A stretch of DNA of 8,690 nt. Source: Thermoflexales bacterium. Its GTDB lineage: Bacteria > Chloroflexota > Anaerolineae > Fen-1058. Within the stretch, counting starts at the first letter, position 1. Each line of letters starts with the position of its first letter. The notes under the pieces were generated by a model that was not told the DNA's origin, made no database searches, and saw only the letters and a program-made list of their open reading frames with translations. Shown here piece by piece: positions 1 through 8,552 of the stretch. The DNA lies in NCBI GenBank assembly GCA_016931085.1, contig JAFGFO010000426.1, forward strand, positions 1 through 8,690, in the 5' to 3' direction. The position numbers and the translations under genes were made by a program.

Positions 1-78
1 ATGGATAGGCCCGTGAATGCCGTCCCGCGCCTGGGCATAGCCGGTCAGGATGGTGTGGATGAGGTGTGAGGATATCAT
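1..78 (-). CDS. Partial CDS, N-terminal 26 codons, possibly an HD-domain-like protein
   Basis: An open minus-strand frame begins with ATG at 78-76 and runs off the window edge without a stop. It encodes 26 residues, starting MISSHLIHTILTGY and ending in the segment DGIHGPIH. The start overlaps the TGA stop of the upstream acetyltransferase (ATGA junction), which strongly favours a real, translationally coupled gene. From memory, an IHGPxHW-like segment close to the N-terminus occurs in small HD-like metal-dependent hydrolase proteins. With only 26 residues visible and no catalytic motif yet reached, that family suggestion is weak. The existence of the gene is much better supported than its function. 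Confidence 0.5.
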   Translation of the reverse strand, partial: MISSHLIHTILTGYAQARDGIHGPIH

Positions 79-644
79 GCACCATTAAGAACTGGCACGT
101 CATTTCGTAATGACGCATTGGCAAACTCGTCTTGCAACGCCGCCATGATGTGCGCGTCCCAGTAACGTCCATCGTGAAAATGGGACTGCCGGCGAGTGCC
201 TTCGCGGCGAAAGCCGCTTTTTTCGTAGCAGCGGATGGCGCGTGGATTGTACTCGAAAACCTCTAGCTCGACGCGGTGGAGATTGAGCGTTCCGAAGGCA
301 AAGGCGAGCATCGTGCGGGTCGCATCGGCGCCATAGCCTTGCCCCCAACACTCCCTCTCTCCCAGGACGATCCCAAATGTGGCAGACCGGTGCTTCCAGT
401 CGATCCGGTGCAATCCCGTATTGCCGATGTGTCGCCACGCATCGCCCGGCTTGGCTTCGATGGCGAACACATAATCGTCTAGCTTGTTTGCCAGTGACTC
501 GATCCAGCGTTCCTCTTGGGCTATCGACATAGGCGCCAACACGAGCAGATAGCTGCGCGTTTCCGGGTCGTTGAACCAGCGGACGAAAGTAGGCGCATCT
601 TCCCGCTCGATGGCTCGCAGCCGAATTCGTTCTCCGTATAGCAT
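75..644 (-). CDS. GNAT-family N-acetyltransferase, RimJ/RimL type
   Basis: This 189-residue protein transfers an acetyl group from acetyl-CoA to an amine. In the RimJ/RimL branch this is often a protein N-terminus, a polyamine or an antibiotic, but the substrate cannot be read from the sequence. The family pattern is clear: an N-terminal GERIRLRAIEREDAPTFVRW segment (residues 4-23), the pyrophosphate-binding loop WGQGYGADAT (100-109), and the C-terminal motif NPRAIRCYEKSGFRREG (133-149), in which Tyr140 sits at the usual general-acid position. The length is normal for the family and the protein should be cytoplasmic. The start is supported by AGGAG (652-656 on the minus strand) 7 nt upstream. 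The gene lies 39 nt after the phosphorylase stop and overlaps the next gene by 4 nt, so all three are probably one transcript. The C-terminal tail after residue 174 is low in conservation signals. Confidence 0.88.
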   Translation of the reverse strand: MLYGERIRLRAIEREDAPTFVRWFNDPETRSYLLVLAPMSIAQEERWIESLANKLDDYVFAIEAKPGDAWRHIGNTGLHRIDWKHRSATFGIVLGERECWGQGYGADATRTMLAFAFGTLNLHRVELEVFEYNPRAIRCYEKSGFRREGTRRQSHFHDGRYWDAHIMAALQDEFANASLRNDVPVLNGA

Positions 645-683: not shown

Positions 684-3248
684 TCACTGTGCCCACAGAA
701 TCAAATCTTGTTTGTACGGATCGCCCAGGTCGGGGTGGCGCGGCAGCACGCGTACCGTGTAGCCGTGTCGCCCGCTCGTCGCCGTCGAGATGGCCCCGAC
801 GAACTCGTGCCGTTTGCGCTTGACCTGGCCAGTAGGCCCCAGCGGCGTGATCTTGGGCCACAGGATTTCACCATCGGCGTCGATGGCGCCATGATAGAGT
901 TCTACCCTCACGTCATCAGGCGTCAGTTCTCCCAGCTCTAGCCAGGCGCGCACGACCAGTGTGTCGCCAACTGTCATTTCGTCGTGCACTTCGGACGTGA
1001 TCTCGACAATCTTGAGAGCCGGCCAATTGCTGCTCGCCTTCTCTTTCCATTCTGTGAGGAGCCTGGCGCGTTTCAAGTCGTCTCCGATCAAGGCTCTGTA
1101 GCGCTCCAGGGCCGGCAGATAAAACTCTTCCGTATATTGGCGCACCATGCGATTGGTGTTAAAGATTGGGCTGATGCTGCGCATGGCCGATTTCATGCGG
1201 CTGATCCAGGCGCGCGGCAGGCCATCCGTGCCGCGTGTGTAGAACAAGGGGACGACTTCTTTCTCGAGCAGCGTGTACAGGGCATGGGCCTCGACTTCGT
1301 TTTGGTAGGCATGATCCTCGTATTCTTCGCCTTGCCCGATCGCCCAGCCGGTGTCGACGTTATAGCCCTCGACCCACCAGCCGTCGAGGACGCTCAAGTT
1401 CAGAGCGCCATTGAGCGTGGCTTTCATCCCGCTGGTGCCACTGGCTTCTAGCGGCCGGCGTGGCGTATTGAGCCAGATGTCCACACCCTGAACCAGGTAA
1501 CGCGCTACGGTGATGTCATAGTCCTCGATAAAAACCACGTGGCGCCGCATGTCAGGGCGTCGGGCAAAATGCACGATCTGGCGGATGATTTCCTTGCCAG
1601 GGTTGTCGTGCGGGTGAGCCTTGCCGGCAAAGATGATTTGCACCGGACAGTTGATGTCGGTCAGGATGCGGGTGATGCGCTCTATGTCGTGCAGCACGAG
1701 CGTGGCGCGCTTGTAGGTGGCAAAGCGGCGCGCGAAACCGATCGTCAAGGCCTCGGGGTTAAGTATCTCGCTGGCCTGTGCCACTTCAGACGGGGGCGCC
1801 CCGTGCGCTTCCAATTGCGAGCGCAGGCGGCTGCGCGCGAAGGCGACCAGCCGCTCGCGCCGGCGCTCGTGCGTGCGCCACAGCTCTTCGTCGGGAATCT
1901 GGTGAACGCGTGCCCACAGATTGAGATCGCCGGGGTCGCCGCGCCAGCGTGGCCCCAGGTAGCGGTCGAACAGGCTGGCCATGTCACGGCTGATCCACGA
2001 TGGCGCGTGAACACCGTTGGTTATCGCGGCGATAGGCGTATCTTCGGGCGGTATACCTGGCCACACATTTTGCCACATCTGGCGCGACACATCTCCGTGC
2101 AGCCGGCTGACGCCGTTGCTGTGCTCAGACATGCGCAGGGCCAGGATAGTCATGCAAAAGCTCTCCCTCTCGTCGTCGGGATTCTGGCGGCCAAGCGCCA
2201 GGAATTCTTGGCGCGTCAATCCCAACTCGTCGTAGAGAGGCGCAAAGTATTTGTCGATCAGCTCGGGCACGAAATAGTCGTTCCCAGCCGGCACAGGCGT
2301 GTGGGTGGTGAAGACCGTGCCGGCGCTAGCTGCCTCACGCGCTTCGTCAAACGACAAATCGTATTTTTCCATCAGCCCCCGGCAGCGCTCCAACGCCAGG
2401 AAGGCGGCATGTCCCTCGTTGATGTGGCATATCATGGGCTGCATTCCCACGGCCTGCAAGGCGCGATAGCCGCCAATGCCGAGCATGATTTCTTGCTTGA
2501 TCCGCATCTCGCGATCACCGCCATACAGTTGGTCGGTGATGTCTCGATCGCTGGGCGCGTTGGCTTCGATGTTGGCGTCGAGCAGATAGAGCGGAATTCG
2601 CCCTACCTGCACGCGCCATATTTGAGCGTAAACCGGCCCCCACGGGTACTCGATAGATATCGTGATGGGCGTTTTGTCCGCGTCTCGCTCTGGCCGGACG
2701 GGTAGGGTGAAAAAATCGTTCTCCGGGTAACTCTCTTGCTGCCAACCGTCGGCGTTGAGATACTGCCGAAAGTAGCCTTGCTGGTACAGCAGCCCCACAC
2801 CCACCAGTGGCAGTCCCAGGTCACTGGCCGACTTGAGGTGATCGCCGGATAGCACCCCCAGCCCGCCGGAATAGTTGGGCAAACATTCGGTCAGGCCAAA
2901 TTCGGCCGAGAAATAGGCCACAAAAGGCTCACATGGCATGCCGGGCACCCTTTGACACCAATTGGAGGGTGGGTTCATGTATTCCAGGTAGTGTTCCCAA
3001 GCGCGTTCCAATTGGGCCAGGAAGGCGTCGTCGCGTGCAGTGCTGTTCAGTCGATCTTGCTTGATGCTGCCCAGTAAAAGCATCGGGTTGTGGTTAGTTT
3101 TTTCCCACAGATCGCGATCCATCCGGATGAACAACTCGAGCAGTTCGTGGTCCCATGACCATAACACATTGTAGGCTAGCTCGCGCAGGGGCTCGAGTTG
3201 GGCCGGCAGCGAGGGAGCTACGTTGTATGTAAAGATTGGACGAGTCAT
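684..3248 (-). CDS. glgP: Alpha-glucan phosphorylase (DUF3417-type glycogen/maltodextrin phosphorylase)
   Basis: This 854-residue cytoplasmic enzyme removes terminal glucose from alpha-1,4-glucans with phosphate, giving glucose-1-phosphate. It belongs to the distant bacterial/archaeal branch of glycogen phosphorylase. The N-terminal 110 residues fit the DUF3417 region (ELAYNVLWSWDHELLELF, 23-40; NHNPMLLLG, 52-60). Conserved blocks follow: GGLGVLSGDHLKSASDLG (128-145), HINEGHAAF (275-283), THTPVPAGNDYF (315-326), GFARRFATYKRA (504-515), GKAHPHDNPGKEIIR (542-556), and EASGTSGMKATLNG (601-614) with the pyridoxal-phosphate lysine at Lys609. The last ~100 residues are a beta-rich tail seen in this branch. 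The ATG at 3248 is preferred because AAAGGAG (3255-3261) lies 6 nt upstream and MTRPIFTYNV is a normal family start. An in-frame extension to 3371 would run through the promoter and is rejected. The gene leads a minus-strand operon with the acetyltransferase. Confidence 0.95.
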   Translation of the reverse strand: MTRPIFTYNVAPSLPAQLEPLRELAYNVLWSWDHELLELFIRMDRDLWEKTNHNPMLLLGSIKQDRLNSTARDDAFLAQLERAWEHYLEYMNPPSNWCQRVPGMPCEPFVAYFSAEFGLTECLPNYSGGLGVLSGDHLKSASDLGLPLVGVGLLYQQGYFRQYLNADGWQQESYPENDFFTLPVRPERDADKTPITISIEYPWGPVYAQIWRVQVGRIPLYLLDANIEANAPSDRDITDQLYGGDREMRIKQEIMLGIGGYRALQAVGMQPMICHINEGHAAFLALERCRGLMEKYDLSFDEAREAASAGTVFTTHTPVPAGNDYFVPELIDKYFAPLYDELGLTRQEFLALGRQNPDDERESFCMTILALRMSEHSNGVSRLHGDVSRQMWQNVWPGIPPEDTPIAAITNGVHAPSWISRDMASLFDRYLGPRWRGDPGDLNLWARVHQIPDEELWRTHERRRERLVAFARSRLRSQLEAHGAPPSEVAQASEILNPEALTIGFARRFATYKRATLVLHDIERITRILTDINCPVQIIFAGKAHPHDNPGKEIIRQIVHFARRPDMRRHVVFIEDYDITVARYLVQGVDIWLNTPRRPLEASGTSGMKATLNGALNLSVLDGWWVEGYNVDTGWAIGQGEEYEDHAYQNEVEAHALYTLLEKEVVPLFYTRGTDGLPRAWISRMKSAMRSISPIFNTNRMVRQYTEEFYLPALERYRALIGDDLKRARLLTEWKEKASSNWPALKIVEITSEVHDEMTVGDTLVVRAWLELGELTPDDVRVELYHGAIDADGEILWPKITPLGPTGQVKRKRHEFVGAISTATSGRHGYTVRVLPRHPDLGDPYKQDLILWAQ

Positions 3249-3281
3249 CGCTATCTCCTTTGGTTTGAATTTGCCCCCTGC

Positions 3282-3364: not shown

Positions 3365-3393
3365 TTGACATTGCGCCTAGTTGACTTTATAAT
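3365..3393 (+). promoter_or_regulatory. Perfect-hexamer sigma-70 promoter for the 31-codon peptide gene
   Basis: TTGACA (3365-3370) and TATAAT (3388-3393) match the housekeeping consensus at every position, with the optimal 17-nt spacer. Transcription should begin near 3400 on the plus strand, leaving a leader of about 165 nt before the small peptide gene at 3565. The promoter lies divergently between that gene and glgP. Confidence 0.8.
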
Positions 3394-3453
3394 ATAGCAT
3401 GTATCCAATGCTGTTTTGCAAGTGGTGCCCACCCAGGTTGTGTGCCTCTAGGC

Positions 3454-3515
3454 CGTTCGCGTTTGATGGACAGCGCGAACGCTGAGTAGCGAGACCTCGT
3501 TTCGCTAGTGCTCAG
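3454..3515 (+). other. Two tandem hairpins in the 5' leader of the small peptide gene
   Basis: Hairpin 1 pairs CGTTCGCG (3454-3461) with CGCGAACG (3474-3481) over a 12-nt loop. Hairpin 2 begins at the next base: CTGAG (3482-3486) pairs with CTCAG (3511-3515), and inside it AGCGA (3488-3492) pairs with TCGCT (3502-3506). No run of T follows either stem, so they are not intrinsic terminators. Their place in a long leader suggests transcript stabilisation or cis-regulation. I do not recognise a known riboswitch class. Confidence 0.5.
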
Positions 3516-3564
3516 GGTGGCTTTCGCGGTATGGATAACTTTTGAATAAGAAAGGAAGATGAAT

Positions 3565-3660
3565 ATGAAAAAACCGTACGATGCTCCTGAGATTATCTTG
3601 GAAGGCGATCTGGAAACACGCGCCGGGTCACCTATTAGCGCACCCCCGATACTTGACTAG
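3565..3660 (+). CDS. Small peptide, 31 residues, RiPP-precursor-like
   Basis: This short frame encodes MKKPYDAPEIILEG at its N-terminus, then DLETRAGSP (15-23), and ends in a Pro/Ile-rich tail with a terminal Asp. The N-terminal half fits the Tyr-x2-Pro-x-(Leu/Ile)-x3-Gly pattern (Tyr5, Pro8, Ile10, Gly14) by which leader peptides of lasso and related RiPPs are recognised by PqqD-like RRE domains. The part after Ala20-Gly21 would then be the core. A canonical lasso peptide is unlikely: the only acidic residue in the core is the last one, not position 7-9, and the core has no Cys. The ATG at 3565 is preferred over the one at 3559 because AGGA (3553-3556) then lies 8 nt upstream. A perfect-hexamer promoter (3365-3393) drives it. 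No modifying enzyme or exporter is within the window. The gene is well supported; its role is a hypothesis. Confidence 0.65.
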   Translation: MKKPYDAPEIILEGDLETRAGSPISAPPILD

Positions 3661-3681
3661 CAATAAGGTGTCTCGCGCGTG

Positions 3682-3751
3682 AAGAACTATGACACGCCGC
3701 TGCCAGCATGCCCTCTTGTCCATCCAGGCTGGCAGCGGTTGTCACGTTCTT
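3682..3751 (+). repeat. Long inverted repeat / hairpin after the small peptide gene
   Basis: A perfect 11-bp inverted repeat, CCGCTGCCAGC (3697-3707) and GCTGGCAGCGG (3728-3738), is extended outward by TGACA/TGTCA (3690-3694 and 3740-3744) and AAGAAC/GTTCTT (3682-3687 and 3746-3751). The loop is 20 nt. It lies 21 nt after the peptide stop and has no clear T-run, so it may protect the 3' end of the peptide transcript, act as a weak or atypical terminator, or regulate read-through into the sigma factor gene. Confidence 0.6.
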
Positions 3752-3927
3752 GAAGTTCATTCTCCTCATCCACGAAGGCCAAGAAGGGGTTTGACATCTC
3801 CCCCTCGGTGATCGAAGCGTTCGTGTACTTTGTGGATAATGGGCTATCGGAATAGCCTGGATAATTTGTCGTTTTGCCTGTAACCCAAAACAGGCAAAGC
3901 TTTGCTGTTCTCTTGTTGACCAAGGAC

Positions 3928-4563
3928 ATGCCTGATTTTGAGCCAAGTTCCGTTCTTCCTAACAAGCCTATTGTAGATCATTTTCTCCGGCCGGCCGACC
4001 AGGCTGATGGACCGATTACGGAGACTTTTTTGCTGCGCCAGGTGGCGGCTGGCGACGAGAGCGCCTTTAACGAGTTGTACCGGCTCTACAACGCTCCGAT
4101 CTACACTTATTTGCTGCACCTCATTCACGAACCGGCCGAGGCGGAGGATTTGCTCCAGGAAGTCTTTGTGGCCGTTTGGAAACAGGCGGCTTCTTTTCGC
4201 GGCCAGGCCAAGGTCAAGACTTGGCTTTTGCAGATCGCGCACAACCAGGCTGTTTCCTGGCTCAGGAAAAACTCGTGTGAACAGGCCACCCTGGATGGCG
4301 GCCTGCCTGAGGCGACGACGGCTGCCACTCCCCTGGATCAGGTGGCGGATCTCTGGCGCGCTGGCCAGGTGCGCTCGGCCCTGGATCAGCTTTCGCGCAA
4401 GCATCGCGCAGTCGTAGAGTTGGCTTTTGTGCATGGCCTTTCGCACTCGGAAATCGCCCAAATCATCGACCGCCCACTGGGGACCGTCAAGAGCCGCATG
4501 AGCTACGCTCTGCATTACCTGGCTGAAACGCTGCGGGAGATGGGCCTGGCACCCGGATCTTAG
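3928..4563 (+). CDS. ECF-like RNA polymerase sigma factor (sigma-70 family)
   Basis: This 211-residue protein has the two-domain layout of an extracytoplasmic-function sigma factor, which directs core RNA polymerase to a specific promoter set. Region 2 spans about 46-112 (FNELYRLYNAPIYTYLL, the core-binding segment EAEDLLQEVFVAVW at 71-84, and the -10-reading part through KTWLLQIAHNQAVSWLRK, 97-114). Region 4 spans about 148-203 with the helix-turn-helix LSHSEIAQIIDRPLGTVKSR (171-190), which reads the -35. An Asp/Ala/Thr-rich linker joins them, and no region 1.2 or 3 is evident. The first ~30 residues precede the usual ECF start. The ATG at 3928 is chosen without a good Shine-Dalgarno; a TTG at 3874 gives 18 more residues and cannot be excluded. 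No anti-sigma gene follows, which is unusual, as a 556-nt non-coding gap comes next. The stimulus and target promoters are unknown. Confidence 0.9.
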   Translation: MPDFEPSSVLPNKPIVDHFLRPADQADGPITETFLLRQVAAGDESAFNELYRLYNAPIYTYLLHLIHEPAEAEDLLQEVFVAVWKQAASFRGQAKVKTWLLQIAHNQAVSWLRKNSCEQATLDGGLPEATTAATPLDQVADLWRAGQVRSALDQLSRKHRAVVELAFVHGLSHSEIAQIIDRPLGTVKSRMSYALHYLAETLREMGLAPGS

Positions 4564-4576
4564 CCCCTAGACCCAT

Positions 4577-4608
4577 ATATTAGACATAATATACATTATG
4601 TCTAATAT
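4577..4608. repeat. Perfect 14-bp AT-rich inverted repeat after the sigma factor gene
   Basis: ATATTAGACATAAT (4577-4590) and its exact complement ATTATGTCTAATAT (4595-4608) flank a 4-nt centre, 13 nt after the sigma factor stop. There is no T-run and the stem is AT-rich, so it is a poor intrinsic terminator. The form suits the operator of a dimeric transcription factor, a cruciform, or an mRNA 3'-end stem. Confidence 0.7.
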
Positions 4609-4976
4609 GCGGCTTTCTACGCCAAAGGCGTCCTGCGGATAGCCGCCGCGCCTGTGGCACGCTTTGCGTGGAAACCTGCCCTACGGGGGTCTCTCCGACA
4701 AGCTCCTAGTTCTCCAAAAGATGTCACGCTTGCAGTGTGATTTACAGTAAATTATCTCCCCCGCTGGCGAAATGTGCCGCCTTCCTTAAGGCGCATCGTC
4801 AAGGTAAATACACATTATTAGCAAACTAAACCTTGCCCTGCGGCGAGCCAGGGATCGAGTCTTTGGCTTGCGCGTAGCGTGCCCACGCCACAGATGGCCC
4901 GCTTCGCGTTGTCCAGGGGAAAACTCGGTTCCTGAAAGCAAGAGCCAAGGGATTTTGCGCCATTAAGAGATGGCGC
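4609..4976. other. Non-coding region with many short stems
   Basis: No convincing gene is visible here on either strand. Several nested pairings are: GCGGCT (4609-4614) with AGCCGC (4641-4646), enclosing ACGCC-aaa-GGCGT (4619-4631); CACGC-ttt-GCGTG (4658-4670); the small palindrome ATTTAC-a-GTAAAT (4740-4752); CGCCTT/AAGGCG near 4773-4788; TTGGCTTGC (4863-4871) with GCAAGAGCCAA (4938-4948, two-base bulge); and GCGCCAT/ATGGCGC (4957-4976). GC-rich structured segments alternate with AT-rich ones. This could hold an unrecognised structured RNA or be decayed DNA. No known RNA family is recognised. Confidence 0.35.
4689..4710 (+). repeat. 22-nt direct repeat, copy 1
   Basis: An exact 22-nt sequence, beginning GTCTCTCCGACAAG and ending CTCCTAGT, is found here and again at 5079-5100. 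Flanking bases differ on both sides. This copy has no recognisable promoter upstream and no convincing frame or ribosome-binding site after it. Confidence 0.9.
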
Positions 4977-5037: not shown

Positions 5038-5065
5038 TTGACAATAGCTCGATTAGCCTTATAAT
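5038..5065 (+). promoter_or_regulatory. Perfect-hexamer sigma-70 promoter for the secreted peptide gene
   Basis: TTGACA (5038-5043) and TATAAT (5060-5065) match consensus fully with a 16-nt spacer. Transcription should start near 5072, giving a leader of about 48 nt. An imperfect dyad, AGCCT/AGGCT, straddles the -10 (about 5055-5070) and could be a second operator. Confidence 0.8.
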
Positions 5066-5078
5066 TAGGCTTGATGGT

Positions 5079-5100
5079 GTCTCTCCGACAAGCTCCTAGT
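5079..5100 (+). repeat. 22-nt direct repeat, copy 2, in the leader of the secreted peptide gene
   Basis: This is identical to 4689-4710. Here it fills most of the 5' leader of the small peptide mRNA. Its CTCCT (5093-5097) can pair with the Shine-Dalgarno AGGAG (5109-5113), or its GTCTC (5079-5083) with GAGAC (5111-5115). The repeat may therefore mask the ribosome-binding site. Confidence 0.9.
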
Positions 5101-5119: not shown

Positions 5120-5212
5120 ATGTTAAAGTATTCTGTCATGCGCGTTCTTGCACTCGGTCTTGTATTGGCAGTCACGTCTGGGGCAGCATATCCCCCTACC
5201 CTTCTCGGCTAG
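5120..5212 (+). CDS. Small secreted peptide, 30 residues, signal peptide with a very short mature part
   Basis: The frame starts with ATG at 5120, 6 nt after a strong AGAGGAG (5107-5113), and stops at TAG 5210-5212. It encodes a basic start (MLKYSVMR), a hydrophobic core (VLALGLVLAV, 9-18), a polar/small stretch TSGAA (19-23) that suits signal peptidase I cleavage (after Ala22 or Ala23), and then a Pro-rich tail YPPTLLG. Export would release only 7-8 residues. It has its own perfect-hexamer promoter (5038-5065) and an intrinsic terminator (5234-5268), so it is a complete monocistronic unit. I know no family for it. Possible roles are an exported signal, a small membrane peptide, or a short regulatory frame. 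The histidine kinase gene follows 143 nt downstream. Expression is well supported; function is unknown. Confidence 0.62.
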   Translation: MLKYSVMRVLALGLVLAVTSGAAYPPTLLG

Positions 5213-5233: not shown

Positions 5234-5268
5234 GGCGAGTTGCGGGCTACGCTCGCGACTCGCTTTTT
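5234..5268 (+). terminator. Intrinsic terminator after the secreted peptide gene
   Basis: GCGAGTTGCG (5235-5244) pairs with CGCGACTCGC (5254-5263) through ten base pairs, one of them a G-T wobble, around a 9-nt loop, followed directly by TTTTT (5264-5268). It separates the small peptide unit from the histidine kinase gene. Confidence 0.85.
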
Positions 5269-5296: not shown

Positions 5297-5355
5297 AGAG
5301 AGACAAATGTGTTGGCGAAAGCCGACGTATTTGAAACGTGCTTTGGGGAGTTGGG

Positions 5356-7578
5356 ATGCGACGGCTCAAGTTGATGCCCAAGCTGGTGATGGTGTTTTTG
5401 GCCGTGTCACTGGTACCCTTGCTAGTGCTCGGCTTGTTCCTGTGTTACGCCATGTTGGCGCGAGCCGGAGTCGATCTCAGCTTGCAAGTGACGATCGCCG
5501 CTTTCGGTTTGATAGCGGCTGCGGTGACGGCGCTGGGATTGACGGCCGGCGCTGCGGCGATCTTTCGTCGTTCTATCGTAGAGCCGATTAACCGGCTCCA
5601 GGCCAGCGCGCTCCAATTGTCGGCCGGCGATTTTCCCACCTTTGAGCTTCACGCCGACGCGGAACAGGAGTTGGCCGAATTGGCCGCGGCTCTGCGAGAG
5701 ACCTCGGCTGGCTTGCACGCCTTGTTCATCGAAGCCGATATGCACACCAAGGATACCGAGCGCTTGTACGCCGAGGCCTACCGGCGCGCCACAGCCCTTC
5801 AAATCATTCATAACGTCAGCCAGCGTATTTCGACGATTTTGGATCTCGACGAGCTTTTGACAGAAATCGTCAAGTTGGTTCGCTCCGGTTTCGATTACGA
5901 TCATATCAACTTGTTCGCCATTGACCGTGTGACCAGGGAGATCGTTTTTTATGCTGGCGCCGGCCGGAGTGGAGAAATCAGCGCCAGAGCGGTGGAGCGC
6001 ATCCGCATCAGCTCCGACAACACGATCGGGCATGTGGCCAGCACCGGCCGGCACTTACTTGTGCAGGACTTTGAGCAGGAGCCGCGTTACCGCCCCCACT
6101 CTGTCAAAACCCCCGGTGGTTATGTCTTGTCGCCCGAGGTGCGCTCGGAATTGGTTGTGCCACTCTCATCGGGTAACCAGTTAATCGGTGTGTTGAGCGT
6201 GTACAGCGGCAAAGTGAACGCTTTCTCCGATTACGATTTGTTCGTACTACAGGAGCTGGCCTATCAGGCCGCCGGCGCTATCGTCAACGCGCGGCTGTAC
6301 GAAGAAGCGTTTAGGCGCGCCGAGGAAATTGTGGCGCTCATGATGACTTCACTGGCCCTATCTACTGTGCCAGATCTGGCGGTGAGACTAGAAGCGATCG
6401 CCTACCATGCCGGCCAATTGACCAACGCTGACGGTTGTACGGTTTACCGCCTGGATGCTCAAACGAACGTTTTGTATCCGCTGGTCTCGCACGATCCGCG
6501 CAGTGAGACCATGATGGCGGCGCACATCCAGGCCGGCACTGGCCTCATTGGGCAGGTGGTACAATCAGGTCAAGGTGCCATTGTGAACCACCCGGAGCGC
6601 TTGGACGTGCCTTGGGCGCTCGACGAGCCGGAATGCCTGATTGCTGTGCCTCTTTTGGTGGCTGACCGGCGGATCGGTGTGATGATCGTGCGCCGCCAGG
6701 GTGCCAGTGCTTTCGCCGCGCACGATTTGGAGTTACTGACCCTGTTTGCCAGCCAGGCGGCCGTGGCCATTGAGAGTGCTGAGCTGTACCAACAGCTCAG
6801 AGATCGAGCCGAGGTCCTGCAGCGTGCCTATAAGCAATTGGAGGAGGCCGACAAGCTCAAGGATGAGATGATCCAGAATATCTCGCACGAGCTGCGCACG
6901 CCGCTTACTTTTATCGTCGGCTATATGGGGCTGCTGATCGACGGTGACATGGGACAGCTCAACTCTCGCCAGCACGAGAGCATGCAACTGGTGTATGAGA
7001 AGGTCAACGTTCTCACGCGCATGGTGGATGCTGTCATCACGCTCCAGACTGTGCGGCTTACCCCACCTCAGCTCGTCCCGCTGGACATCGTTGTCCTGGC
7101 GCAGCGGGCGGCAGAGATTGCCCAGGCCCAATCTATCGCGAATAATATGAATATTCAAGTCGGGTCTGAATTCTCTTCGGAAGTTGTTTACGTCATGGGG
7201 GAGCCTGCTTACTTGACCCAGGTTATGGAAAACATATTGAACAATGCGGTCAAATTTAGCCCAGATGGCGGGCAAGTTATTGTGCGTGTTGTTGAGAGTG
7301 TAGACGATGATCCTGAGGTAAGAGTCGAGATCGAGGACAGCGGCATCGGTATACCTGTAGACAAGTTGGAGAAAGTCTTTGAAAGATTCTACCAGGTGGA
7401 TGGCACCTCTACACGCCGTTTTGGGGGAATCGGGATGGGCCTGGCGATTTGCAAAGAAGTCGTAGAGGCCCTGGGAGGACGAGTATGGGTCGAAAGCCCT
7501 ACTCGGAGTGACCACGGCTCCAAGTTTTGTTTCACGCTGCAAAAGGCCAGCAGCGAGCAAGCCAGGGATGCAGGCTGA
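5356..7578 (+). CDS. Membrane sensor histidine kinase (HAMP-GAF-GAF-HisKA-HATPase)
   Basis: This 740-residue kinase should autophosphorylate on His511 in NISHELRTPL (508-517) and pass the phosphate to a response regulator. Two membrane helices (about 10-33 and 45-70) enclose only some ten residues, so there is no real extracytoplasmic sensor domain. A HAMP linker follows (about 71-123; Pro77 in IVEPINRL). Two GAF domains (about 149-312 and 322-478) are the likely sensors of a small molecule or redox state. A helical linker leads to HisKA (about 499-566) and the HATPase domain (about 612-730) with the N box ENILNNAVKFSP (625-636), G1 DSGIGI (661-666), F box ERFYQ (676-680) and G2 GGIGMGL (690-696). 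All catalytic motifs look intact. The ATG at 5356 is preferred to GTG 5338 because GGGGAG (5345-5350) lies 5 nt before it. No response regulator is in the window. The stop overlaps the recombinase start by one base. Confidence 0.93.
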   Translation: MRRLKLMPKLVMVFLAVSLVPLLVLGLFLCYAMLARAGVDLSLQVTIAAFGLIAAAVTALGLTAGAAAIFRRSIVEPINRLQASALQLSAGDFPTFELHADAEQELAELAAALRETSAGLHALFIEADMHTKDTERLYAEAYRRATALQIIHNVSQRISTILDLDELLTEIVKLVRSGFDYDHINLFAIDRVTREIVFYAGAGRSGEISARAVERIRISSDNTIGHVASTGRHLLVQDFEQEPRYRPHSVKTPGGYVLSPEVRSELVVPLSSGNQLIGVLSVYSGKVNAFSDYDLFVLQELAYQAAGAIVNARLYEEAFRRAEEIVALMMTSLALSTVPDLAVRLEAIAYHAGQLTNADGCTVYRLDAQTNVLYPLVSHDPRSETMMAAHIQAGTGLIGQVVQSGQGAIVNHPERLDVPWALDEPECLIAVPLLVADRRIGVMIVRRQGASAFAAHDLELLTLFASQAAVAIESAELYQQLRDRAEVLQRAYKQLEEADKLKDEMIQNISHELRTPLTFIVGYMGLLIDGDMGQLNSRQHESMQLVYEKVNVLTRMVDAVITLQTVRLTPPQLVPLDIVVLAQRAAEIAQAQSIANNMNIQVGSEFSSEVVYVMGEPAYLTQVMENILNNAVKFSPDGGQVIVRVVESVDDDPEVRVEIEDSGIGIPVDKLEKVFERFYQVDGTSTRRFGGIGMGLAICKEVVEALGGRVWVESPTRSDHGSKFCFTLQKASSEQARDAG

Positions 7579-8552
7579 TGCCGAATGTCGACGAAGCGCG
7601 GGAGCGTTTCCTGGCCAAGCTGCCTGGCAGCCCCCGCACCGTTGAGACCTACACAAACGCTCTGGGTGCGTTCGTGCGCTGCTTGCAGGAGGACTATCCT
7701 GGCGTAGCGACCATATCCGATCTGCCGGAAGATATCTTGGCGGGCTTTTTTGTCTGGTTGGATCGCAGCTATGCCAGCCGTGCTACACAGGCCACCTACC
7801 TGGCGGCGGCCCGGCGTTTTCTCACCTGGCTGGATGCCAATGACTGGCTGGCTGAACCCTTCCAGTTGAGCAAGGCTACCAGCAAGTTGTTGGCTGCTCG
7901 TGGCCAAAGGCAGCACAGCGCTTACCAGCACCGGCCGGTGGACCCCGGCATACCACTCATCGTGACGTATTATGATGGTTTGCCCTTGCCGTCCGGCGAG
8001 TCTGTGCCTGATCGCCGCCGCCGACTGATCCTGCTGCGTAACCGCGCCCTGGTCCACACGCTGTACGCCAGCGGGGGACGTGTCAGCGAGATTCTCTCCC
8101 TGACGCGCGCCGGCGTTTTCGATGGGCGCTCGAAGCGTGTGCTTATTACGGGCAAGGGCGGCCGCGATCGTATGTTGCTGCTGACGCTTGAGGCCCAGCG
8201 GGCTATCCAGGCTTATGTCAAGGAACGCGAGGACGAGCAGCCTGCTTTGTTCGTTTCACACGGACGTGAGCGCCAGCCTCGCCCGCTCAACCGCAAGACG
8301 GCCTGGAAAGTCGTCAAGGACGCGGCCAAGGCCTTGGGATTGCACGAAATCACCTCGCCGCACAGCTTTCGCCACTACCGGGCGACCCAGTTGCTCAACG
8401 AGGGCATGCCCCTGGAAAGCGTGCAGGCTTACCTGGGGCACGTGTCCATCGAGACGACGCGCGTGGTGTATGCGCATACCTACACGGCCGTGCTTGAGGA
8501 CCAGTTGGACACCTACGGGCGCTCAGCCCAAGACGCGGCTCGCGATCTGTGA
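7578..8552 (+). CDS. Tyrosine recombinase/integrase, XerC/XerD-like
   Basis: This 324-residue protein cuts and rejoins DNA through a 3'-phosphotyrosine. The N-terminal SAM-like core-binding domain (about 4-88) includes SPRTVETYTNALGAFVRCL (18-36). The catalytic domain (about 145-315) shows the full set: Arg168 in ASGGRVSEIL, Lys193 in ITGKGGRDR, His262 and Arg265 in SPHSFRHYRA, His288 in LGHVSIETT, and the nucleophile Tyr298 in VVYAHTY. Length and order are typical of Xer or phage-type recombinases, which act in chromosome-dimer resolution, mobile-element integration or DNA inversion. The ATG at 7578 overlaps the kinase TGA (TGATG), so it is probably translated by coupling. A frame extending to 7527 would start inside the kinase gene and is rejected. 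No attachment sites, excisionase or phage genes are visible. Housekeeping Xer versus a specialised recombinase cannot be decided from the sequence. Confidence 0.92.
   Translation: MPNVDEARERFLAKLPGSPRTVETYTNALGAFVRCLQEDYPGVATISDLPEDILAGFFVWLDRSYASRATQATYLAAARRFLTWLDANDWLAEPFQLSKATSKLLAARGQRQHSAYQHRPVDPGIPLIVTYYDGLPLPSGESVPDRRRRLILLRNRALVHTLYASGGRVSEILSLTRAGVFDGRSKRVLITGKGGRDRMLLLTLEAQRAIQAYVKEREDEQPALFVSHGRERQPRPLNRKTAWKVVKDAAKALGLHEITSPHSFRHYRATQLLNEGMPLESVQAYLGHVSIETTRVVYAHTYTAVLEDQLDTYGRSAQDAARDL

Follow-up and report, generated by a model that had tools for sequence, protein, structure and literature searches.

The Linear Polyphosphorylated Peptide (LPP) system of Paenibacillus alginolyticus, with components LppA, LppK, LppB, LppS, LppD, and LppN, was published in 2026 and is stated there to be restricted to Bacillota, its biological role being given as unknown (PMC13381572). 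LppS cleaves the precursor LppA after position -1 and LppK phosphorylates Ser 3 (PMC13381572). The core serine of LPPs is multiply phosphorylated. In lasso peptide and LPP systems, the RiPP (ribosomally synthesized and post-translationally modified peptide) recognition element, or RRE, is described there as binding YxxP or WxxP, and in LppB residue D70 holds the Tyr and N33 the Pro region (PMC13381572). Here, we compare the LPP system with a 31-codon frame located at positions 3565 to 3660 (plus strand) of an 8,690-nt stretch of Thermoflexales bacterium DNA (contig JAFGFO010000426.1), designated the window. We conclude that this frame probably encodes an orphan, LPP-like, RRE-dependent precursor that would be matured in trans and that belongs to a family known mostly from a single Chloroflexota class.

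The 31-codon frame and its expression signals

The frame, its ribosome-binding site, and a promoter matching the consensus hexamers at 12 of 12 positions are all present, as the first-pass annotation of this DNA had reported. The features of the locus are as follows.

3365..3393, plus strand: promoter TTGACA-17-TATAAT (-35 at 3365-3370, -10 at 3388-3393; 12/12)
3400..3564, plus strand: presumed 5' untranslated region with stem-loops, about 165 nt long when counted from a deduced transcription start
3553-3558, plus strand: ribosome-binding site AGGAAG, read from the sequence, 6 nt upstream of the ATG at 3565
3565-3660, plus strand: 31-codon frame and stop, reading MKKPYDAPEIILEGDLETRAGSPISAPPILD
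3565..3624, plus strand: leader MKKPYDAPEIILEGDLETRA, with Tyr at -16, Pro at -13, and Ala at -1 if cleavage occurs after Ala
3625..3657, plus strand: presumed core GSPISAPPILD, with a deduced boundary

Use of an alternative in-frame ATG at 3559 would make the peptide two residues longer. The boundary between leader and core was placed after Ala because of a conserved A-G-[ST]-P junction and because the resulting Tyr-to-cut spacing equals that of LppA. The motif Y-x2-P-x-I-x3-G, followed by D and LETRAGSP, occurs as previously noted, and the N-terminus had rightly been read as an RRE-type leader. The region 3399-3561 folds at -56.8 kcal/mol (z -1.87), with 7 of 200 shuffles folding equally well.

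Two promoter sites scoring 12/12 were found in the window. Since only 1 of 2000 first-order Markov resamples held any such site, their presence is not due to chance. Sites matching at 11 or 12 of 12 positions with 17-nt spacing were present in 15 of 65 family upstream regions (window included), several of the 15 being close relatives of one another. These sites are located 119 to 257 nt upstream of the leader Tyr, and a score of at least 11 was reached in about 2 of 650 mononucleotide shuffles of the upstream regions. The promoter of the window is the best example of a family habit and not a singular feature.

A large family of tiny peptides in Chloroflexota

Searching 396 genomes of one Chloroflexota class by tblastn with the window peptide returned 75 rows at E<0.01, distributed in 48 genomes, with a best E-value of 2.2e-7 (a per-genome value). 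At E<=0.5, 91 of the 396 genomes were matched, many near chance level. Of 191 genomes sampled across the phylum, two (G384 and G044) were matched at E<=0.01. The family therefore seems concentrated in one class, since both genomes were already in the class sample. When 5.8 billion proteins were searched with a profile, 1427 protein clusters were detected at E<=0.01. Among the 120 listed, all named proteins were hypothetical proteins, and the organism was shown for six, comprising five Chloroflexota and one metagenome-assembled genome (MAG) labelled Nitrososphaerales.

A local profile built on the 19 residues of the leader scored the window frame at E 2.1e-11, the window row being among its 26 seeds. 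The leader consensus is YxxPx[IV][IV]xExxLExxAG[ST]P. In 171 unique sequences, combining the loci with the 120 listed proteins (found via the motif and leaning to the query subgroup), the Tyr, Pro, Ala, and Gly residues were near-invariant and position 18 was Ser in 154 and Thr in 13. The region beyond position 19 was more variable, so that the conserved leader with a variable tail anticipated by the first-pass annotation was indeed found in the aligned relatives. On sequence evidence, the 31-codon frame is a real gene and a member of a large Chloroflexota family of tiny peptides. Pfam gave no match to the 31-codon peptide. Within the literature searched on RRE-dependent RiPPs, lasso peptides, associated kinases, and Chloroflexota RiPPs, the family was not found described; a study counting RRE-containing clusters in Anaerolineae MAGs names no such family in its accessible part (PMC11748557).

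Eight loci (L124, L126, L132, L133, L135, L139, L141, and L142) form an orphan subgroup with the tail ...DPADLFG or similar. Their peptide genes are flanked by a gene for a PLD/lamin-tail surface protein on one side and by a ribonucleotide-reductase-like gene on the other; no RRE was found within the fetched regions, and seven of the eight carry an 11/12 promoter.

Genes next to the relatives

Gene neighborhoods were compared in 60 fetched regions and the window. Of these 61 regions, 60 contain a total of 66 peptide genes and one (L143) contains none. The loci comprise profile matches at E<0.05 and the weaker Trp-leader loci L157, L161, and L162, added by hand; L148:3924 was dropped. Within 6 kb of the 66 peptide genes, we detected genes for PqqD proteins (25), C25 peptidases (23), kinase-like proteins (15), signal-peptidase-like domains (15), ABC transporters (6), radical SAM proteins (5), nucleotidyltransferases (NTP_transf_5-like, 3), and sigma factors (3, including the window). 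All counted neighbors were on the strand of the peptide gene, save one ABC transporter. Fifteen of the 66 loci had been chosen because PqqD shared the contig; PqqD was present at 11 of the remaining 51.

In a genome-wide test, at least 14 of 72 peptide rows had a PqqD among the listed matches no more than 6 kb away, always in the same orientation, versus 0.46 expected, and at least 7 had one within 1 kb, versus 0.08 expected; these counts are lower bounds as the PqqD search covers the best matches listed. The 72 rows derive from the 75 tblastn rows below 0.01, two of those left out being inside long open frames and one having an E-value of 0.00925; of the two rows in long frames, G107:C160 appeared on later inspection to be a genuine member. 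These results indicate that the relatives are linked to a PqqD-type recognition element far above chance. The modified-peptide interpretation of the first-pass annotation is partly supported, and is corrected as to the partners, which in the relatives are genes for PqqD-type RREs and for kinase-like, signal-peptidase-like, and C25 proteins.

The kinase-like proteins display invariant His-Lys-Asp-Asp residues and are predicted kinases with a PEPCK-like fold. In a VIA-align comparison of this fold, HPr kinases were not among the best 50 matches listed, which excludes nothing. The profile of the kinase-like proteins matched mainly the P-loops of ABC transporters, and PEPCK weakly, among sequences of solved structures. 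Searched against the SynChlorMet (ScmC, ScmD) and HPr-rel-A models of NCBIfam, the kinase-like protein of locus L118 gave E-values of 2.4e-7 to 0.0018 and its PqqD protein 2.9e-13 to 1.1e-5, every match being below the curated cut-off. A literature search on SynChlorMet found no paper using the word. The signal-peptidase-like domains show a strict Ser-His-Lys-Gly-Asp pattern in 10 of 15 cases, the remaining five displaying SM, HR, and GD by eye. Four of these proteins were scanned with Pfam; Peptidase_S24 was above cut-off in two and Peptidase_S26 below it. The C25 peptidases are of the gingipain type. A neighbor cluster considered as a lasso B2 protein (c2) was rejected, the sequences being those of Fn3-like surface proteins, of which some carry a signal-peptidase-like domain at the N-terminus.

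Putative leader recognition by PqqD-type proteins

The fetched regions contain 26 PqqD matches, of which one is a fragment. A pattern search detected the Asn in all of the other 25, and in 20 of these an Asp is located exactly 37 residues further, as for N33 and D70 of LppB. Among loci with a Tyr leader, the RRE harbors Asp in 19 of 21, Glu in one, and Ser in one, for which the PqqD gene is 8 kb away. Among the four loci with a Trp leader (L157, L160, L161, and L162), the RRE harbors Ser in three and Asp in one, the loci compared not being independent. The leader of L159, missed by the pattern, was taken from the leader profile search. This apparent pairing between leader and RRE residues recalls the Tyr/Trp discrimination described in the LPP paper (PMC13381572). 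The four Trp-leader loci encode sister peptides whose leaders carry WxxP and whose tails are rich in Gly and Pro (e.g., ...AQGG...GGGFCV).

An ECF sigma-factor gene downstream of the peptide gene

The presumed partner gene of the peptide, to which the first-pass annotation had made no link, encodes an extracytoplasmic function (ECF) sigma factor.

3928-4563, plus strand: ECF-type sigma-70 factor (211-aa form in the protein database)

We compared eight loci encoding relatives of this sigma factor (L175-L182), consisting of the best six from the 396-genome class sample and two new ones from an order search. In four of them (G384, G409, G328, and G353), kinase, PqqD, and peptide genes were found, in this order, directly upstream of the sigma gene and on the same strand; in G167, G138, G407, and G103, none of the three was present within 1.5 kb. 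The sigma-linked peptides, for example MYETPMIVFEGELEVHAGSPVQLDVLPELE, have 30 residues, nearly the length of the window peptide. The window retains the order of peptide and sigma genes, and a divergent glucan phosphorylase gene stands where the kinase and RRE genes would be. The protein encoded after the sigma factor in G384 and G353 is a presumed anti-sigma factor, for which Pfam gave no match in G384. Sigma relatives above 57% were not found in the class sample, in two orders (48 and 5 genomes), or in a phylum sample of 400 genomes, in which a single genome, G384 itself, was matched. The protein database holds relatives at 89, 83, and 82%.

Comparison with LPP and paeninodin systems

The nearest described system found is the LPP system, not lasso peptides. 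Counted from the presumed cut, Tyr is at -16 and Pro at -13, as in LppA, the Tyr-to-cut distance being 16 residues in both. The window gene is therefore read as encoding an LPP-like precursor. Other features in common with LPPs are hydrophobic residues at -11, -10, and -5 of the family leader; short precursors with a YxxP leader and a variable tail; a spacing of 37 between the Asn and Asp of the RRE; a hydroxyl residue shortly after the presumed cut; and the lack of a linked cyclase. Among the neighbors of the relatives, the PqqD-type RRE and the kinase-like protein also correspond to LPP components. The archaeal-type signal-peptidase-like domains may be counterparts of the archaeal-type signal peptidase I that serves LPPs as leader peptidase, and the less frequent nucleotidyltransferases and ABC transporters may be counterparts of the LPP NTP transferase and MsbA-like transporter.

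The differences are that the family occurs in Chloroflexota and not in Bacillota, that it has Ala instead of Thr at -1, Ser/Thr at +2 instead of +3, and very short cores, and that C25 peptidases and, in some loci, ECF sigma factors are linked to it. The full gene set is not together at the window and seldom elsewhere. The window gene was not filed as an LPP member because it lacks the HQ and FET residues of the consensus and Ser at +3; the LPP authors describe their family as restricted to Bacillota.

Paeninodin-type phosphorylated lasso peptides (PadeK, ThcoK) share with the family a kinase with His-Lys-Asp-Asp residues and an RRE-type leader (PMC9266682). In contrast, the family has no linked B2 peptidase or macrolactam cyclase in the 53 genomes compared, and the target Ser of paeninodin is C-terminal (PMC9266682).

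Competing explanations and proposed pathway

Several observations weigh against an LPP-like precursor matured in trans. The LPP consensus YxxPxVLxHQxIxFETxxS is not matched, its HQ, FET, and Ser +3 having no counterpart, and Thr replacing Ser in LppA was not phosphorylated (PMC13381572). No PqqD gene lies within 6 kb at 41 of 66 loci, and the neighbor counts are not independent because the loci are related. The kinase assignment draws on motifs, on the fold, and on NCBIfam matches that stay below cut-off, and solved HPr kinases rank far below PEPCK (TM-score 0.33). Where a kinase gene lies no more than 2 kb away (12 loci), AG is followed by Ser in seven cases, by Thr in two, and by neither in three, so that phosphorylation at this position is not a rule for all. 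The four sigma-linked loci all come from one order, and the G384 and G409 peptides are nearly identical. Finally, a Pfam scan of the main genes and local profiles detected no maturation gene (for an RRE, a kinase, or a peptidase) on the window contig (1-8690). In this respect the peptide is an orphan, as first described, although it is not an isolated curiosity, being one of 1427 protein clusters.

A chance open frame behind a chance promoter has next to no probability. The frame is very short, but the promoter is beyond chance and the family is conserved; homologous frames, whose absence from relatives would by the first-pass annotation have refuted its reading, were found. It is very improbable that the peptide is a lasso precursor with a B2 peptidase and cyclase encoded elsewhere. 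The leader motif is of the lasso type, and an acidic residue is present at positions 7-9 from Gly in 37 of 63 related loci and 107 of 120 listed proteins. However, the window core has PPI or APP at positions 7-9, in agreement with the earlier remark that the tail, having no D or E at 7-9 from Gly or Ala, does not fit the lasso ring rule. B2 (PF13471) was above cut-off in 8 of 53 chosen peptide genomes, never on a contig with a listed peptide, and Asn_synthase was on the contig of the peptide in three genomes (G367, G094, and G041), tens of kb or more apart. Clusters of PqqD, B2, and Asn_synthase in G060, G311, and G141 were on other contigs, and the Pfam scan of the window contig detected neither B2 nor a cyclase. 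The only NCBIfam match to the peptide, lasso_cyano, scored 11.5 bits, far below the cut-off of 33. Lasso identity was rejected on the basis of this score, the lack of linked B2 or Asn_synthase in the 53 genomes, and the missing ring acid.

It is quite unlikely that the precursor belongs to another maturase, for example a radical SAM/SPASM enzyme, and that several enzymes use a common leader. At L113:6522, L114:8685, and L148:3566, a radical SAM gene starts 117 nt past the Tyr codon of the peptide, which favors such a maturase over an LPP-like pathway. Nevertheless, these peptides form their own subgroup, YVSPEIV(Y/C)EGDLEIQAGSPLS..., no radical SAM gene was seen on the 6.3-kb contig of its fourth member, L173, and the sigma-linked relatives, closest to the window arrangement, have a kinase and PqqD. 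It is also unlikely that the product is an unmodified small regulatory protein, never processed, that would bind for instance the neighboring ECF sigma factor or an RRE-fold adaptor. The pairing of peptide and sigma genes in four relatives and the many loci without maturation genes nearby are consistent with this role, but the RRE linkage and the pairing of leader and RRE residues fit recognition by a processing complex.

For the LPP-like precursor, which we regard as the probable identity of the window peptide, the leader (YDAPEII...) would dock into an RRE whose gene lies elsewhere in the genome. This RRE would present the peptide to a kinase for modification of the hydroxyl residue just past the leader (the Ser of AGSP), and a signal-peptidase-like enzyme would cut after the conserved Ala (TRA|GSP). 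The linear 11-residue GSPISAPPILD, probably phosphorylated or further decorated, would be released to the cell surface or outside. We infer the phosphorylation, the cleavage, and the product from the relatives and from LppA. The downstream sigma factor would be the likeliest co-regulated partner, adjusting a surface-protein program.

If so, the same leader geometry, RRE residues, and kinds of neighbors in Chloroflexota would extend LPP-like peptides to another phylum and would suggest that precursors can be scattered as orphans. The ECF sigma factor would be a first regulatory partner for functional access, and a working hypothesis would be available for more than 1000 tiny protein clusters without a family name in our searches. 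A broader and rather doubtful proposal is that Chloroflexota have a large class of their own of linear phosphopeptides guided by RREs. These would be connected to ECF sigma/anti-sigma pairs and to secreted C25 peptidases and would serve peptide signaling or surface remodeling. Orphan precursors, each with a strong promoter, might then share an RRE-kinase-peptidase complex that matures them in trans, and might act back on the neighboring sigma factor.

Other features of the window

The remaining features are as follows.

75-644, minus strand: GNAT acetyltransferase
684-3257, minus strand: alpha-glucan phosphorylase
3682..3755, plus strand: strong hairpin without a T-run, 3' of the peptide gene (inverted arms 3697-3710 and 3725-3738)
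5338-7578, plus strand: GAF/HisKA sensor kinase
about 7581-8552, plus strand: Xer-type recombinase

The region 3676-3762, which includes the hairpin, folds at -38 kcal/mol (z -4.68). An Rfam search of the window gave no match. The closest relative of the glucan phosphorylase (66%) is from an Ignavibacteriales MAG, perhaps reflecting horizontal transfer.

The second 12/12 promoter, with a 16-nt spacer, is located at 5038-5065, upstream from a 30-codon frame (5120-5212, MLKYSVMRVLALGLVLAVTSGAAYPPTLLG) with a hydrophobic, signal-peptide-like N-terminus. This second micro-gene had no convincing relative in 48 genomes, the matches in 5 of the 48 (E 0.17-0.41) being at chance level. A strong T-tailed terminator is present at 5234-5264 (z -6.65). 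A perfect 14-nt inverted repeat (ATATTAGACATAAT / ATTATGTCTAATAT) lies just 3' of the sigma gene, at 4577-4608. A 25-nt repeat occurs in two copies, at 4686-4710 and 5076-5100, the latter within what is presumed to be the 5' region of the second micro-gene.
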